Translations under genes and position numbers: made by a program
Source of the DNA: Candidatus Omnitrophota bacterium
GTDB lineage: Bacteria > Omnitrophota > Gorgyraeia > Gygaellales > Profunditerraquicolaceae
DNA length: 5,982 nt
Direction: 5' to 3'
Assembly (NCBI GenBank): GCA_020062065.1
Contig: JAGUWZ010000104.1
Span: 1 to 5,982 of the forward strand
Shown: positions 827 through 5,587 of the stretch, in pieces
How positions within the stretch are numbered: the first letter of the stretch is position 1
Layout: each line of letters starts with the position of its first letter
Notes under the pieces: generated by a model
What the model was told of the DNA's origin: nothing
What the model saw: the letters and a program-made list of their open reading frames with translations, nothing else
Database searches by the model: none

Positions 827-1681
827 GTGTTTAAGAGATTGTTATTCGTTCTGATAGTGGTTACATTCGCAACTTCCGCATTTGCGGCAAAAGCTAAAAA
901 TTTAATACAAGTCAAAGGTTCGGATACTATGGTTAATTTAGGCCAGGCCTGGGCTGAAAAGTATATGGAGAAAAATCCTACTAATTTCGTAGCTGTTACA
1001 GGCGGAGGTTCAGGCACAGGTCTATCGAGTCTCATCAGCGGCACCTGTGATATTGCTATGAGTTCAAGGAATATCAAAGAGAAGGAAATTAGTCTTGCCA
1101 AGCAAAAAGGCATAAATCCTAATGAAATAAAAGTGGCATTAGATGGCCTTGCGGTTGTTGTGAATCCGAATAACCCCGTAAGCAAGCTTACTATAGATCA
1201 ACTGGCAGCAATTTTTACCGGCAGAGTTGCTAATTGGAAAGAATTAGGTGGGAAAAATGAGAAGATTGTGATACTCTCGCGCGAAGTTAACTCTGGAACC
1301 CATGTTTATTTTAAGGAACATGTCTTAAGAAAGAATGAGCCTAATAGCAAAGAAGAATTTGCCCCAAGCGCTTTAATGCTTTCATCTTCTCAGGCAATCG
1401 CAGATGAAGTAGCAGGGAATCCCGCTGCTATTGGTTACTATGGAATGGGGTATATTTCGAAAAAACAAAAGCCATTACATATAGCCAAAGATGAGAAATC
1501 AGAATATGAAGCGCCGACAATAGAGAACGTCATAAATGGTAAATACCCGATTTCAAGGCCGTTATTTCTCTATACCAACGGCATGCCGGAAGGCGCGGTA
1601 AAGAATTTTATAGATTTTGCGCTTTCTAAAGAAGGGCAGGATATTGTTTTGGTGACAGATTTTGTGCCAGTTAATAAATAA
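827..1681 (+). CDS. pstS: PstS, periplasmic phosphate-binding protein of the Pst ABC transporter
   Basis: Captures inorganic phosphate in the periplasm and delivers it to PstC/PstA. The 284-residue product starts with GTG (see the AGGAGG at 816). Residues 1-20 are a type I signal peptide (FKR, hydrophobic core, AFA before the cleavage site). No lipobox cysteine is present, so the protein should be soluble in the periplasm. Phosphate-site motifs of the PstS/PBP-like family are visible: GSDT at 31-34, TGGGSGTG at 58-65, D75 followed by SSR at 79-81, and SREVNSGTH at 151-159. The length fits the short PstS type (about 270-300) rather than the longer E. coli type. It is the first gene after the Pho box and, as the binding protein, probably the most highly expressed. 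pstC begins 5 bases after its stop. Confidence 0.95.
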   Translation: MFKRLLFVLIVVTFATSAFAAKAKNLIQVKGSDTMVNLGQAWAEKYMEKNPTNFVAVTGGGSGTGLSSLISGTCDIAMSSRNIKEKEISLAKQKGINPNEIKVALDGLAVVVNPNNPVSKLTIDQLAAIFTGRVANWKELGGKNEKIVILSREVNSGTHVYFKEHVLRKNEPNSKEEFAPSALMLSSSQAIADEVAGNPAAIGYYGMGYISKKQKPLHIAKDEKSEYEAPTIENVINGKYPISRPLFLYTNGMPEGAVKNFIDFALSKEGQDIVLVTDFVPVNK

Positions 1682-1686
1682 AATAT

Positions 1687-2553
1687 ATGCGTAAGCTAAA
1701 AGAGTTTATTATTGAAAAATTAATCTTAATTTGCGGTTTAGCTTCAATATTCTTTGTAGTGCTGATTTTTTTATTCTTGCTTAAAGAGGGGCTTGCAGTA
1801 TTTAAGACTGTAAACCCTTTAAAATTTCTCTTTGGTAAGAGCTGGTATCCTATTTCAGAGCCTGCGCAGTTAGGAATCCTGCCGTTAATTCTAGGGTCTC
1901 TATTAGTTACTTTGGGAGCGGCAATCATTTCCATACCCATAGGCGTTGGTTGTGCTATTTATATCGCTGAGATAGCCCCATTAAAGATCAAGGAGATTCT
2001 TAAGGCAGGGATAGAGTTGTTAGCAGCTATTCCCAGCGTTGTCTTAGGTTTTATCGGCATGGTAACCCTTGTCCCTTTAGTAAAAAATATCTTTCATCTA
2101 CCAACAGGTCTGACTGCTTTATCTGGTTCAATAATGTTGGCGTTTATGGCCATGCCCACCATAGTTTCTATTGCCGAGGATGCCTTGTATTCTGTCCCTA
2201 AGACGTATAAAGAAGGCGCTCTTGCCTTAGGAGCGACACACTGGCAGGCGATATGGCGGGTAATGCTTCCAGCAGCATCAAGCGGCATACTTGCTGCAGT
2301 TATGCTTGGGATCGGTCGAGTAATCGGTGAAACTATGGCAGTGATGATGATTACTGGTAACGCTGCGGTTATACCCAAGAGCATCTTAGTGCCCGTAAGA
2401 ACTTTAACCGCTACTATTGCCGCTGAAATGGGAGAGGCGGTAGTAGGCAGCGAACATTATTTTGCTTTGTTTGCCATCGGCATAGTCCTGTTTGTTATTA
2501 GCTTTGCAATTAACGTAAGCGCAGATTTATTTCTGCACAAAAGACAACAATGA
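1687..2553 (+). CDS. pstC: PstC, phosphate ABC transporter permease subunit
   Basis: One of the two inner-membrane channel subunits. The 288-residue product has six likely membrane segments at about 11-33, 63-95, 109-133, 142-163, 197-224 and 257-280. The EAA loop that docks onto the ATPase subunit is clear at 176-195 (EGALALGATHWQAIWRVMLP, with conserved G182 and the final LP). It is followed by GRVIGETMAV at 209-218, the conserved Arg/Glu stretch of Pst permeases. The ATG lies 5 bases after the pstS stop and no Shine-Dalgarno sequence is visible in the AT-only region before it, so translation probably depends on ribosomes finishing pstS. It overlaps pstA by 4 bases (ATGA). Confidence 0.95.
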   Translation: MRKLKEFIIEKLILICGLASIFFVVLIFLFLLKEGLAVFKTVNPLKFLFGKSWYPISEPAQLGILPLILGSLLVTLGAAIISIPIGVGCAIYIAEIAPLKIKEILKAGIELLAAIPSVVLGFIGMVTLVPLVKNIFHLPTGLTALSGSIMLAFMAMPTIVSIAEDALYSVPKTYKEGALALGATHWQAIWRVMLPAASSGILAAVMLGIGRVIGETMAVMMITGNAAVIPKSILVPVRTLTATIAAEMGEAVVGSEHYFALFAIGIVLFVISFAINVSADLFLHKRQQ

Positions 2554-3398
2554 AAAATCCTTACAGAACGCAGAATATCGCATTTTTCTTTTTATTCTTA
2601 GCCACACTTTTAATAATCATACCGGTTGGACTGATAGTTGTGGTTATTATCCAAAAAGGATTGCCTGCGATTAACTGGCAATTCCTTTCGGATATACCGC
2701 GGCAAGGAATGCGCGCAGGCGGAATATTGCCGGCAATTATAGGGACATTATATCTAGTTACAGGAGCGATTATCTTTGCTTTACCAATAGGTCTTCTTTC
2801 AGCCATATATTTAAGCGAATATGCAAAAGACAATATGCTTACCCGGATTATAAAATTAGCAATTGTTAATCTGGCAGGCGTACCCTCTGTAGTTTATGGA
2901 CTTTTTGGCCTAGCCCTTTTTGTAGTATTTTTAAAATTTGGAGCATCAATTCTTTCTGGTTCGCTTACGCTTGGAATTATGATCCTTCCTGTAATTATTA
3001 CTGCTTCAAGCGAAGCATTAGAAAGTGTTCCGTATTCTTTCCGCGAGGTAAGTTTATCTTTAGGCGCAAGTAAATGGCAGACCACCAGACACATTGTTTT
3101 GCCGAATGCCCTACCCGGAATACTGACCGGAACGATCTTAGGTTTGGGGCGAGCAGCAGGAGAGACAGCGCCCATACTTTTTACTGTTGCGGCTTTTTAC
3201 CTACCACAACTGCCTAAGTCTATCTTCGATCAGGCAATGGCTTTACCCTACCATCTTTATGTTATCTCAACCCAGGTGCCTAATGTCGATGAAAAAGTGC
3301 GTTATGGAACGGCGCTGGTATTACTAACATTAGTTTTGTTTATGAACTTAGTGGCGATAATCATCCGTTATAAATTCAGGAAAAATAAAAAATGGTAA
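2550..3398 (+). CDS. pstA: PstA, phosphate ABC transporter permease subunit
   Basis: Partner of PstC in the membrane channel. The 282-residue product has six likely membrane segments at about 11-34, 58-89, 103-128, 132-152, 188-215 and 252-274. The cytoplasmic EAA loop is at 166-185 (EVSLSLGASKWQTTRHIVLP, G172 and final LP), followed by GLGRAAGETAP at 198-208. The GETAP form, against GETMAV in PstC, is what separates PstA from PstC. The start overlaps the pstC stop (ATGA, 2550-2553), typical of coupled translation, and only a weak purine run precedes it. Its 3' end overlaps pstB1 by 7 bases. Because PstC and PstA differ, each can select a different ATPase subunit, which matters for the unusual PstB pair downstream. 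Confidence 0.95.
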   Translation: MKNPYRTQNIAFFFLFLATLLIIIPVGLIVVVIIQKGLPAINWQFLSDIPRQGMRAGGILPAIIGTLYLVTGAIIFALPIGLLSAIYLSEYAKDNMLTRIIKLAIVNLAGVPSVVYGLFGLALFVVFLKFGASILSGSLTLGIMILPVIITASSEALESVPYSFREVSLSLGASKWQTTRHIVLPNALPGILTGTILGLGRAAGETAPILFTVAAFYLPQLPKSIFDQAMALPYHLYVISTQVPNVDEKVRYGTALVLLTLVLFMNLVAIIIRYKFRKNKKW

Positions 3399-4138
3399 AG
3401 TTCAAAATACACGATTTAAATATTTGGTTTGGCTCTATCCATGCCTTAAAGCAGGTGAATATGGAGATTCAATCTAATGAAATCTTAAGCATAATTGGAC
3501 CTGCAAATAGTGGCAAGACAACTTTTTTACGCACGCTTAATCGTTTAAATGACCTTAATACGAATTTTAAGATGACCGGAGCGGTAGAGATAGAAGGGGA
3601 AGATATAAGGGGAATTAATATAGAGGTATTGCGCCGTAAGATAGGCATGGTATTTGCCTTGCCCTTGCCGCTCCCCTTATCCATATTTGAGAATGTATCC
3701 TATGGGCTTAGGATGCATGGAGAAAGAAAGAAAAAAAAGCTGGAAGAAAAAGTAGAAGAAGCATTACAGCAAGCATATCTCTGGGAGGAAGTAAAAAATC
3801 GGCTGGAGGAATCGGCTTTTAAATTATCAGGAGGGCAGCAGCAGCGCCTTTGTATTGCAAGGACGTTAGCAGTAGGGCCTGAAGTAATCTTATTTGATGA
3901 ACCATGTTCTGGGCTTGATCCTATTTCTACAGCGAAAGTAGAAGAGGCTATGGTTAAACTAAAACAAAAATATACAATCGTTTTAGTAACAAATAACGTA
4001 AAGCAAGCAGCCAGGGTTGGCGATAGGACAGCTTTCTTTTTAAATGGCGAGCTTATCGAGCTGGATAGAACAGATAAAATCTTTACTGCACCCTTCGACA
4101 AACGCACGGATGGTTATATCAGAGGGAAATTTGGATAA
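3392..4138 (+). CDS. pstB: PstB1, phosphate transporter ATPase with degenerate Q-loop and H-loop
   Basis: Cytoplasmic ATP-binding subunit of Pst, 248 residues, a normal PstB length. Domain order: A-loop aromatic F13; Walker A G36-T43 (GPANSGKT, consensus-compatible but unlike the usual GPSGCGKS); Q-loop at 86-96; signature LSGGQ at 145-149, perfect; Walker B VILFDE at 165-170 with catalytic E170 kept; D-loop SGLD at 173-176; H-loop at 199-203. Two key residues are missing. The Q-loop reads [11 protein letters not shown], with Ala at 89 (codon GCC, 3656-3658) instead of Gln. The switch motif reads VTNNV, with Asn201 (AAT, 3992-3994) instead of His. The frame is intact with no stops, so this is not simple decay. 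It overlaps pstA by 7 bases and pstB2 by 1. It probably pairs with PstB2 and supplies the working LSGGQ. Confidence 0.93.
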
Positions 4139-4893
4139 TGGCAAAGATAATAACTAAAAATTTGAATCTCTGGTACGGTGGCTTTCATGCTCTTAAAGAC
4201 ATAAATTCAAGCTTTGAGGCAAACAGGATTACTGCCATCATCGGCCCTTCGGGATGTGGCAAATCTACTCTTCTTAGGGTCTTCAATCGTATGAATGATT
4301 TAATTGATGGCGTGCGTACGGATGGAGAAGTCCTAATTGAAGATACTAATATTCTGAATTCTCAGACAGATTTAGTAGTCTTGCGTAAAAAAGTAGGAAT
4401 GGTGTTTCAGCGTCCCAATCCATTTCCTTTGTCAATTTATGAAAATATAGTTTTCGCAGAGAAGATTCATGGGGAGGGTGTAACCAGGGATAAATTAGAT
4501 GAAATAGTGGAAACAAGCCTTAAGGGGGTTCTTTTGTGGGAGGAGTTAAAAGATAAGCTAAATGAGCCCGCTTTAAAATTATCCTTAGAAGAGAAACAAA
4601 GGCTTTGTATTGCCAGGCTCATTGCGGTTAAGCCTGATGTCTTGTTAATGGATGAGCCCTGCTCTAGCTTAGATCCGCAAGCAACCGCAAGAGTCGAAGA
4701 ATTAATGCGGGAACTAAAGAATAAATATACTATAATAATAGTTACCCACAATATGCAGCAGGCAGCGCGTGTTTCAGATGATACGGGTTTTATGCTTTTA
4801 GGTGAACTAATAGAATTTGGAAAAACAGAAGAAATATTTACCGCGCCAGGTGATAGGCGCACAGAAGATTATATTACCGGAAGATACGGATAA
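4138..4893 (+). CDS. pstB: PstB2, phosphate transporter ATPase with degenerate signature motif
   Basis: Second ATP-binding subunit, 251 residues, clearly a tandem paralogue of PstB1: about half the positions match by eye, and both end in IFTAP-x-D-[KR]-RT...YI-x-G-[KR]-[FY]-G. A-loop Y13, Walker [10 protein letters not shown] at 36-44, Q-loop Gln91 (VFQRPNPFP), Walker B VLLMDE at 168-173, D-loop SSLD at 176-179 and switch His204 (VTHNM) are all canonical. The signature is not. Where PstB has LSGGQQQR, this protein has LSLEEKQR (148-155; codons TTA GAA GAG at 4585-4593), losing both glycines and the glutamine. The start uses TAATG, overlapping the pstB1 stop by one base. It retains everything PstB1 lost and lacks what PstB1 kept, so it probably forms the one complete ATPase site together with PstB1. 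Confidence 0.93.
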
Positions 4894-4909: not shown

Positions 4910-5587
4910 ATGGAACGGCATGTTGATCAAGAACTAAAAGAATTGAATAAGGATATTCTTAAGCTGGGCGCTTTGGCAGAAGAAGTTATTTATAAATCAA
5001 TTGAAGCGCTGAAAAATCGGGATAGGGATATGGCTAAGAGTGTCATAGAAAATGATTCCAATATTGATAAATTGGAATTAGCGGTAGATGAAAAATGCAT
5101 TGATTTGATAGCGCGCTATCAACCTATGGCTGGTGACCTCCGCTTTATTACCACTGGGATGAAAATAAATACTGACTTGGAAAGAATAGCAGATATTGCG
5201 GTAGATATAGCCCAGCGGACGCTTGAAATAGTGGATAAGCCTCTTTTAAAACCATTAATTGATATACCTAAACTGGCGGCTGTTGCGCAAAATATGGTTA
5301 AGATGTCCATAGACTCATTTGTGAGGGGAGATATTGCTTTAGCTAAAAAGGTATTGCTATCCGATTCCGAAGCTGATCAACTTCGCAACGCCATACAAAA
5401 AGAACTTATTGAAGATTATATGGTGAAAGATGGGACTACTGCGCCAAGAGCGGTTCAGTTATTACTAATAGCTCGCTTCTTGGAGCGTATATGTGATCAT
5501 ACTACTAATATCGCAGAAGACGTGATCTATTTGGTTCAAGCCGAAGTTGTAAAGCATCACCCTGAGAAATTAAAGAATAACAAATAG
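4910..5587 (+). CDS. phoU: PhoU, phosphate signalling and transport regulator
   Basis: Cytoplasmic regulator that links the state of the Pst transporter to the PhoR/PhoB-type two-component system and holds back the Pho response when phosphate is plentiful. The 225-residue product has the normal PhoU length and two tandem, mainly helical repeats of about 100 residues (roughly 10-108 and 118-212). Each carries the family's metal-cluster motif: ERIAD at 91-95 with D99, and ERICD at 192-196 with N200 and D204. RYQPMAGDLRFI at 69-80 is the conserved loop of the first repeat; the equivalent in the second repeat is at about 177-187. It starts 16 bases after pstB2 with its own good ribosome binding site, unlike the overlapping transporter genes, so it can be translated independently. 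No terminator is visible directly after it. Confidence 0.95.
   Translation: MERHVDQELKELNKDILKLGALAEEVIYKSIEALKNRDRDMAKSVIENDSNIDKLELAVDEKCIDLIARYQPMAGDLRFITTGMKINTDLERIADIAVDIAQRTLEIVDKPLLKPLIDIPKLAAVAQNMVKMSIDSFVRGDIALAKKVLLSDSEADQLRNAIQKELIEDYMVKDGTTAPRAVQLLLIARFLERICDHTTNIAEDVIYLVQAEVVKHHPEKLKNNK

Follow-up and report, generated by a model that had tools for sequence, protein, structure and literature searches.

We examined the pst operon on contig JAGUWZ010000104.1 of a Candidatus Omnitrophota bacterium, which encodes the Pst system, the textbook high-affinity phosphate importer. The stretch analyzed, called the window below, is 5,982 nucleotides long and contains two adjacent genes for the ATPase subunit, pstB1 and pstB2. 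The motifs of an ATP-binding cassette (ABC) ATPase are divided between their products in a complementary manner, with the signature intact and the ATP core altered in PstB1, and the ATP core canonical and the signature degenerate in PstB2. A full split of this kind was found in 154 of the 157 adjacent pairs collected from this lineage (window included), and the remaining three each had an unreadable position, in truncated genes in two cases and in a masked stretch in the third. By analogy with other ABC transporters, we consider it probable that PstB1 and PstB2 pair under PstC-PstA as a heterodimer, in which one ATP site would be fully canonical and the other degenerate.

The two genes and their motifs, the latter read from the window DNA, are as follows:

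3392..4138, + strand: pstB1, ATPase subunit, LSGGQ intact and ATP core altered (TIGR00972, 342.2 bits, cut-off 343.2)
3497..3523, + strand: PstB1 Walker A, altered, GPANSGKT (canonical GPSGCGKS/T), also read in the survey
3656..3658, + strand: PstB1 Ala89, at the Q-loop Gln position
3824..3838, + strand: PstB1 signature LSGGQ, residues 145-149, kept
3899..3901, + strand: PstB1 Glu170, the Walker B catalytic-position Glu, kept (DE, residues 169-170)
3992..3994, + strand: PstB1 Asn201, at the switch-His position
4138..4893, + strand: pstB2, ATPase subunit, ATP core canonical and signature degenerate (TIGR00972, 366.8 bits, cut-off 343.2)
4243..4269, + strand: PstB2 Walker A, canonical
4408..4410, + strand: PstB2 Gln91, Q-loop
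4579..4593, + strand: PstB2 LSLEE, residues 148-152, replacing LSGGQ
4654..4656, + strand: PstB2 Glu173, the Walker B catalytic-position Glu (DE, residues 172-173)
4747..4749, + strand: PstB2 His204, the switch His

An original prediction, made from the letters of this DNA, had described PstB1 as combining Ala89 and Asn201 with LSGGQ, and PstB2 as combining Gln91 and His204 with LSLEE, and the window DNA confirms this description. It had also stated that Walker A, Walker B and the catalytic Glu are kept in both proteins, which is correct for the Walker B Asp-Glu but not for Walker A, since the PstB1 motif retains the G-x4-GK[ST] skeleton and Lys42 and differs in the middle. This alteration, which the prediction overlooked, strengthens the case for a split of motifs. 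The PstB1 score fell about 1 bit short of the TIGR00972 cut-off, yet this was its top family by 91 bits. PstB1 and PstB2 share 52% identity over 251 columns, and are thus two non-identical nucleotide-binding domains (NBDs). Their predicted single chains are ordinary PstB folds (mean predicted local distance difference test scores of 85 and 86), and the best structural match of both models was Escherichia coli PstB in Protein Data Bank (PDB) entry 9k3x, with template modelling scores of 0.94 for PstB1 and 0.93 for PstB2.

Each ATP site of an ABC dimer is formed by Walker A/B, the Q-loop and the H-loop of one subunit together with the signature of the other (PMC7756269). On that build, the PstB2 core with the PstB1 LSGGQ would make a canonical site (site I), and the PstB1 core with the PstB2 signature, which has the form LSxE, would make a site altered on both faces (site II).

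We surveyed the motifs of related sequences in 327 loci (L039 on), which held 508 PstB-like frames after those below 170 bits were dropped, and 425 unique sequences once 83 identical copies were removed; the window was counted once, together with the identical pair of locus L190. These sequences comprised 162 of B1 type, 160 of B2 type, 88 canonical PstBs and 15 others, which were truncated, masked, of an LSIGQ/LSVGQ type, marked by ISGGQ (one) or odd (two, namely a third gene in L254 and a gene in L331). Because the B1 and B2 classes are defined by their own motifs, including the Asn of B1 and the signature Glu/Asp of B2, the informative parts of this result are that few sequences lie in between and that adjacent genes never present another mix. 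Motifs were read in the fetched stretches; 60 phylum regions were picked by their similarity to PstB1, and the species-genome scan used patterns containing LSGGQQQ or LFDEPCSG, giving 80 named loci among the matches listed, so that the pair counts describe pairs and not rates per genome. Counting B1 and B2 per genome by score alone was ruled out, since the scores of canonical PstBs overlap. Genome-wide examination of 18 host genomes of named loci supplemented the survey.

Results demonstrated that B1 preceded B2 in all 154 full-split pairs, that the Gln, the His or the GG of the signature was kept at site II in none of them, and that 153 had a canonical site I, with a gene truncated at a contig end in the remaining one. 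The prediction had looked for a clade in which the loss is always split in this way, and this lineage is such a clade in every readable pair. Relatives with canonical motifs in both copies, which it had named as evidence against itself, were absent from the 157 adjacent pairs (0 of 154 had two copies with canonical Q, H and LSGGQ), unlike tandem PstBs of the Bacillota type. At the Q-loop Gln position, the 162 B1 sequences had Ala (144), Pro (16) or Ser (2) and never Gln, and all 160 B2 sequences had Gln; the switch-His position was Asn in 162/162 B1 and His in 160/160 B2. The B1 signature was LSGGQ in 158 and MSGGQ in four, and the fourth position of the B2 signature, canonically Gly, was Glu in 158 and Asp in two. 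The LSLEE spelling seen in the window was rare among B2 (10/160, with LSLEQ in 108/160), the constant change being the replacement of this Gly. Walker A differed as well, with Cys at column 40 in 0% of the 162 B1 versus 100% of readable B2, and Gly at column 39 in 5% versus 100%, respectively. The Walker B catalytic-position Glu was present throughout (162/162 B1, 160/160 B2). Database relatives, taken as the best 120 per search minus the window's own of about 8000 scored, gave the same pattern: all 119 relatives of PstB1 had Ala and Asn, with LSGGQ in 118 and LSGGP in one, and all 119 relatives of PstB2 had LSLEQ with Gln and His.

We scanned all 66 columns conserved in at least 95% of the 88 canonical PstBs, and scored a column as lost in B1 or in B2 if most sequences of that type (over 50%) no longer kept it. 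B1 had lost eight columns (33, 38, 39, 40, 91, 96, 189 and 204), which map to the strand before Walker A, Walker A itself, the Q-loop, the H-loop and a helix position after the D-loop (189). B2 had lost four (137, 150, 151 and 153), which cover the stretch leading up to the signature, both Gly residues of the signature and the residue immediately after it. Losses in B1 were thus confined to the ATP-core half and those in B2 to the signature half, with zero overlap, a split of 8 and 4 that Fisher's test (worked by hand) puts at 1 in 495 when columns are treated as independent, which neighbouring columns are not; a smaller set (64 columns, 7 and 4 losses) gave a Fisher p of 0.003. Together with the 154 pairs, and assuming standard ABC dimer geometry, the scan indicates that one composite site is non-canonical on each of its two faces and that the other site is canonical. 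Given its recurrence in the database relatives, the split is far beyond chance, and the 162 B1 and 160 B2 sequences show that it does not reflect local decay. Both PstB1 and PstB2 are under strong purifying selection; in the unsaturated comparisons with close relatives, the ratio of nonsynonymous to synonymous substitution rates (dN/dS) was 0.026-0.069 in B1 (7 of 12 comparisons) and 0.036-0.109 in B2 (8 of 12).

Tandem PstBs in Bacillota, the phylum of an Oscillospiraceae genome, served as a control. A PstB match was present in 147/199 genomes, with at least five tandem pairs, and in the five pairs seen among the matches listed and fetched, both copies were canonical (5/5); these five were all of the canonical-canonical adjacent pairs in the survey. 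This indicates that tandem duplication alone does not give the split. The prediction had expected such duplicated copies to be canonical, which holds for these five pairs and also for PstB1 and PstB2 of Enterococcus faecalis, both of which have canonical motifs (PMC12096839). Like the window, E. faecalis and Bacillus subtilis (PstBA/PstBB) have two adjacent pstB genes after pstA, but both copies are canonical; the B. subtilis proteins have been modelled by others as a mixed pair (PMC11466899). E. coli PstSCAB (PDB 9k3x and 9k3s) has the same subunits and PstB fold as the window system. A single PstB sequence occupies four chains in these two entries, indicating two copies per complex, and that one sequence carries LSGGQ, Q and H, whereas the window has two different, complementarily degenerate genes.

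The pairs are spread over many phyla. Record titles of B1 sequences included Omnitrophota, Elusimicrobia/Elusimicrobiota, Endomicrobium, Ruminimicrobiellum, WOR-1, Planctomycetota/planctomycete/Pirellulales, Verrucomicrobiales/Prosthecobacter, Acidobacteria, Aminicenantes, Deltaproteobacteria, Syntrophorhabdus and Poribacteria, and a few read just "bacterium" or "Proteobacteria". Matches to PstB at 1e-80 were found in 239/384 phylum genomes, a figure that mixes canonical and B1/B2 types, and at E 1e-65 in 68/98 related genomes. Of the 49 adjacent pairs that the latter yielded, 48 had the full split, and in the remaining one B2 ended at a contig end before the His position. Among the 80 named loci, a pair was present in 22, of which one has masked letters and another a truncated B2, and B1 alone in two, the others holding canonical PstB or other ABC ATPases. 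Searches with Verrucomicrobiota and Planctomycetota B1 queries at 1e-75 gave matches in 4/145 Verrucomicrobiota and 17/149 Planctomycetota genomes (centre genomes included); 14 of these 21 genomes were obtained as loci, and the pair was present in 14/14. By hand count, 19 genomes at least 90% complete had a B1-B2 pair as their sole two PstB matches at E 1e-65. One locus titled Proteobacteria (L205) has a pair 74-75% identical to that of the window, and is possibly a mislabelled Omnitrophota draft. A genome of the window's family with a different genus code (G362; L190, L191) has two pairs, one with the same PstB1 and PstB2 sequences as the window and one that differs; possibly one contig was binned into two draft genomes.

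Several variants of PstB were observed alongside the main classes. A clade of Planctomycetota/Verrucomicrobiota type (L253, L254, L256, L258, L353, L354 and L356-L365) has a site II that has decayed further, with Gln replaced by Pro, DEPCS by DEFSI and TNN by TNL in PstB1, and with the partner signature LQLEQ in 8/16. A third PstB type in the same class (L081, L086, L092, L096, L100) has LSIGQ or LSVGQ, keeps Gln and His, and mostly reads THILRQ at the H-loop; the stretches that carry it hold no B1-B2 pair. A divergent PstB near a B1-B2 pair in Poribacteria (L254, 3941-4738) has Arg at the Q-loop, LSIGQ, and Asn at the switch His, and a PstB-like sequence in the genome of a Trichormus record (L331, 1432-2256) has Ala at the Q-loop and an ISYGQ signature and keeps His.

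To examine the origin of the pair, trees were built without the motif columns from 32 pairs (window included), chosen for diversity out of the 117 pairs of a smaller set; four rows were left out of one tree (three long branches and one of odd composition) and five out of the other. B2 formed a single clade with support of 98-99, and trees that held B1, or B1 and B2 together, as one clade were better than the free tree by 79-85 log units. These sequence comparisons point to a single old duplication as the most likely source of B1 and B2, and they fit a history in which this duplication was followed by complementary loss and then by spread as a unit. By homology spans, the ATPase gene next after pstA was B1 in 156 cases, B2 in none, canonical in 75 and other in 10. 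PstA and PstC proteins adjoining the pair clustered apart from those neighbouring canonical PstBs, with 3 and 2 label changes versus shuffled means of about 60 and 44, in fasttree trees of all 327 loci that are indicative only. Apparent natural PstA-PstB1 fusions in several Planctomycetota/Verrucomicrobiota B1 frames (440-840 amino acids), which would have tied B1 to a position under PstA, were rejected, being stop-to-stop extensions over pstA in a different frame.

The window is a tight operon on the + strand in the order pstS-pstC-pstA-pstB1-pstB2-phoU, and the top model of each gene is its own NCBIfam family. The other four genes, which flank the ATPase pair and all score above their family cut-offs, are:

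827..1681, + strand: pstS, phosphate-binding protein (TIGR02136, 270.9 bits, cut-off 206.6)
1687..2553, + strand: pstC, permease (TIGR02138, 293.2 bits, cut-off 196.45)
2550..3398, + strand: pstA, permease, overlapping pstC and pstB1 (TIGR00974, 298.7 bits, cut-off 193.45)
4910..5587, + strand: phoU (TIGR02135, 203.5 bits, cut-off 130.25)

There is a single pstC and a single pstA. The overlap of pstB1 with pstA, and that of the pstB2 start codon with the pstB1 stop (TAATG), suggest that PstB1 and PstB2 are likely co-produced. Candidatus Omnitrophota provided the closest named relatives of the window proteins. Upstream of pstS, at 92-751 on the + strand, lies a gene for a DUF2490 protein (PF10677, E 8e-34) with an apparent signal peptide by eye; it may be located in the outer membrane and belong to the same regulon. 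Rfam and transfer RNA scans of the window gave no matches.

In the mechanism that we propose, site I, in which Walker A/B, Gln91 and His204 of PstB2 face LSGGQ of PstB1, would bind and hydrolyse ATP and drive phosphate import. Site II, in which Walker A, Ala89 and Asn201 of PstB1 face LSLEE of PstB2, would bind ATP, given that PstB1 retains Lys42 and the Walker B Asp/Glu, and would hydrolyse little of it, acting as a hinge that holds the dimer together between strokes. Since both sites of either homodimer would be half damaged, selection would keep the two genes together.

Several observations weigh against this interpretation. The catalytic-position Glu and the Walker A Lys are present in 162/162 B1, and site II is thus not stripped of catalytic residues. 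In MRP1, replacement of the H-loop His of nucleotide-binding site 2 (NBS2) by Asn or Gln left transport like that of the wild type (PMC7756269), and Asn201 alone therefore need not abolish hydrolysis. We infer both the physical pairing of B1 with B2 and the ATPase asymmetry, in which site II would not hydrolyse, by analogy. A single fixation of the losses in a common ancestor is probable, which means that the 154 pairs do not count as that many independent events. The outcome of the column scan varies with its cut-offs, the smaller set giving 7 and 4 columns with 136 replacing 153 and without 189, and column 189 is no active-site position. In the free tree, five B1 sequences of the Planctomycetota/Verrucomicrobiota type are separated from the rest of B1, which we treated as long-branch attraction because the constrained tree is about 85 log units better. 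Pairing itself has exceptions. One 85% complete genome (G334; L192/L341) has pstC-pstA-pstB1-phoU, with a canonical PstB operon on another contig, and no B2 was found in it, in that operon or elsewhere. Two Elusimicrobia genomes (L211 and L306; L212/L312 and L294) have B1 and B2 on separate contigs, providing a natural test of co-retention without linkage. These three genomes are among the eight cases of unpaired B1, the other five of which lie at a contig end or adjoin a truncated partner; the six unpaired B2 comprise three at a contig end, the two in Elusimicrobia and one with a masked partner. The word "obligate", which the prediction applied to the pair, has one apparent exception in the G334 draft.

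It is conceivable that PstB1 and PstB2 form separate homodimers for different conditions, each tolerating half-degenerate sites. The canonical PstBs of E. faecalis have unequal roles, and an excess of its PstB2 substitutes for PstB1 (PMC12096839); moreover, the separated genes in Elusimicrobia and the lone B1 of G334 would suit such an arrangement. However, separate homodimers do not predict that in all readable pairs the losses affect the two opposing faces of a single composite site, nor that in the Planctomycetota/Verrucomicrobiota-type clade, with its change of Gln to Pro and its LQLEQ signatures, both faces have decayed further, and the window operon offers one pstC and one pstA; we therefore regard them as quite improbable. 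We also think it improbable, if a little less so, that both sites of a heterodimer hydrolyse ATP and that Ala, Asn and LSxE represent a lineage-specific alternative chemistry. The invariant Walker A Lys and Walker B Asp/Glu of B1 and the tolerance of an H-loop Asn in MRP1 NBS2 agree with this idea, as do replacements that are fixed and not random (Asn in every B1, Glu/Asp in every B2, although both are part of the class definitions). Against it, several motifs of one site are altered together, and the change of the fourth signature residue from Gly to Glu is shared with the degenerate signature LNVEQ of yeast Pdr5 (PMC7756269). An error of sequencing or assembly, or decay confined to this genome, might be suspected, given that the window comes from an 836-kb draft that is 71% complete and in 162 contigs, but this explanation is refuted by the recurrence of the motifs in the unique B1 and B2 sequences and the database relatives, and by the strong purifying selection.

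The heterodimer that we favour has parallels among known transporters. TAP, TM287/288, CFTR and Pdr5 resemble the proposed window heterodimer in having two unlike NBDs with one canonical and one degenerate site, and the Glu in LNVEQ of Pdr5 stands at the position matching that of LSxEQ in B2 (PMC7756269). They are, however, exporters or a channel, whereas the window system is an importer, and the catalytic Glu is replaced in several of them (PMC7756269), whereas B1 keeps this Glu and has lost the Q-loop Gln and the H-loop His. RbsA and NupO are importer NBD pairs with one degenerate site, as proposed here, but their NBDs are fused, they are described as type II importers, they have lost the Walker A Lys, and they are not Pst systems (PMC11466899). 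The peptide importers DppDF and OppDF have two NBD genes per importer, as in the window, and a nucleotide analogue was bound at DppF only (PMC12136057); this likeness is one of gene number and not of compared motif states. Paired unlike PstBs in Bacillota (PMC12096839, PMC11466899) and degenerate sites in exporters and fused-NBD importers are already known. In the literature searched, which most subscription papers lie beyond the reach of, we found no report of an asymmetric Pst ATPase, nor of motifs split between two Pst ATPases, in keeping with the suggestion of the prediction that an asymmetric Pst motor may be new.

Many "PstB" annotations in these phyla may name subunits that do not work alone, which is relevant where pstB serves as a marker of phosphate uptake. 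A lineage in which the split is fixed allows a natural test of whether importers of this class require two functional ATP sites: the asymmetric version is already there, accompanied by a PstC/PstA lineage of its own, and many phyla have retained it. We tentatively suggest, as a possibility somewhat short of even, that this is an old multi-phylum importer lineage with a one-stroke motor, which would spend one ATP per cycle at a single site while a permanently occupied degenerate site holds the motor. If this is true, the one-stroke Pst system would be the importer counterpart of the TAP/CFTR design, and being cheaper per phosphate would suit energy-poor bacteria.

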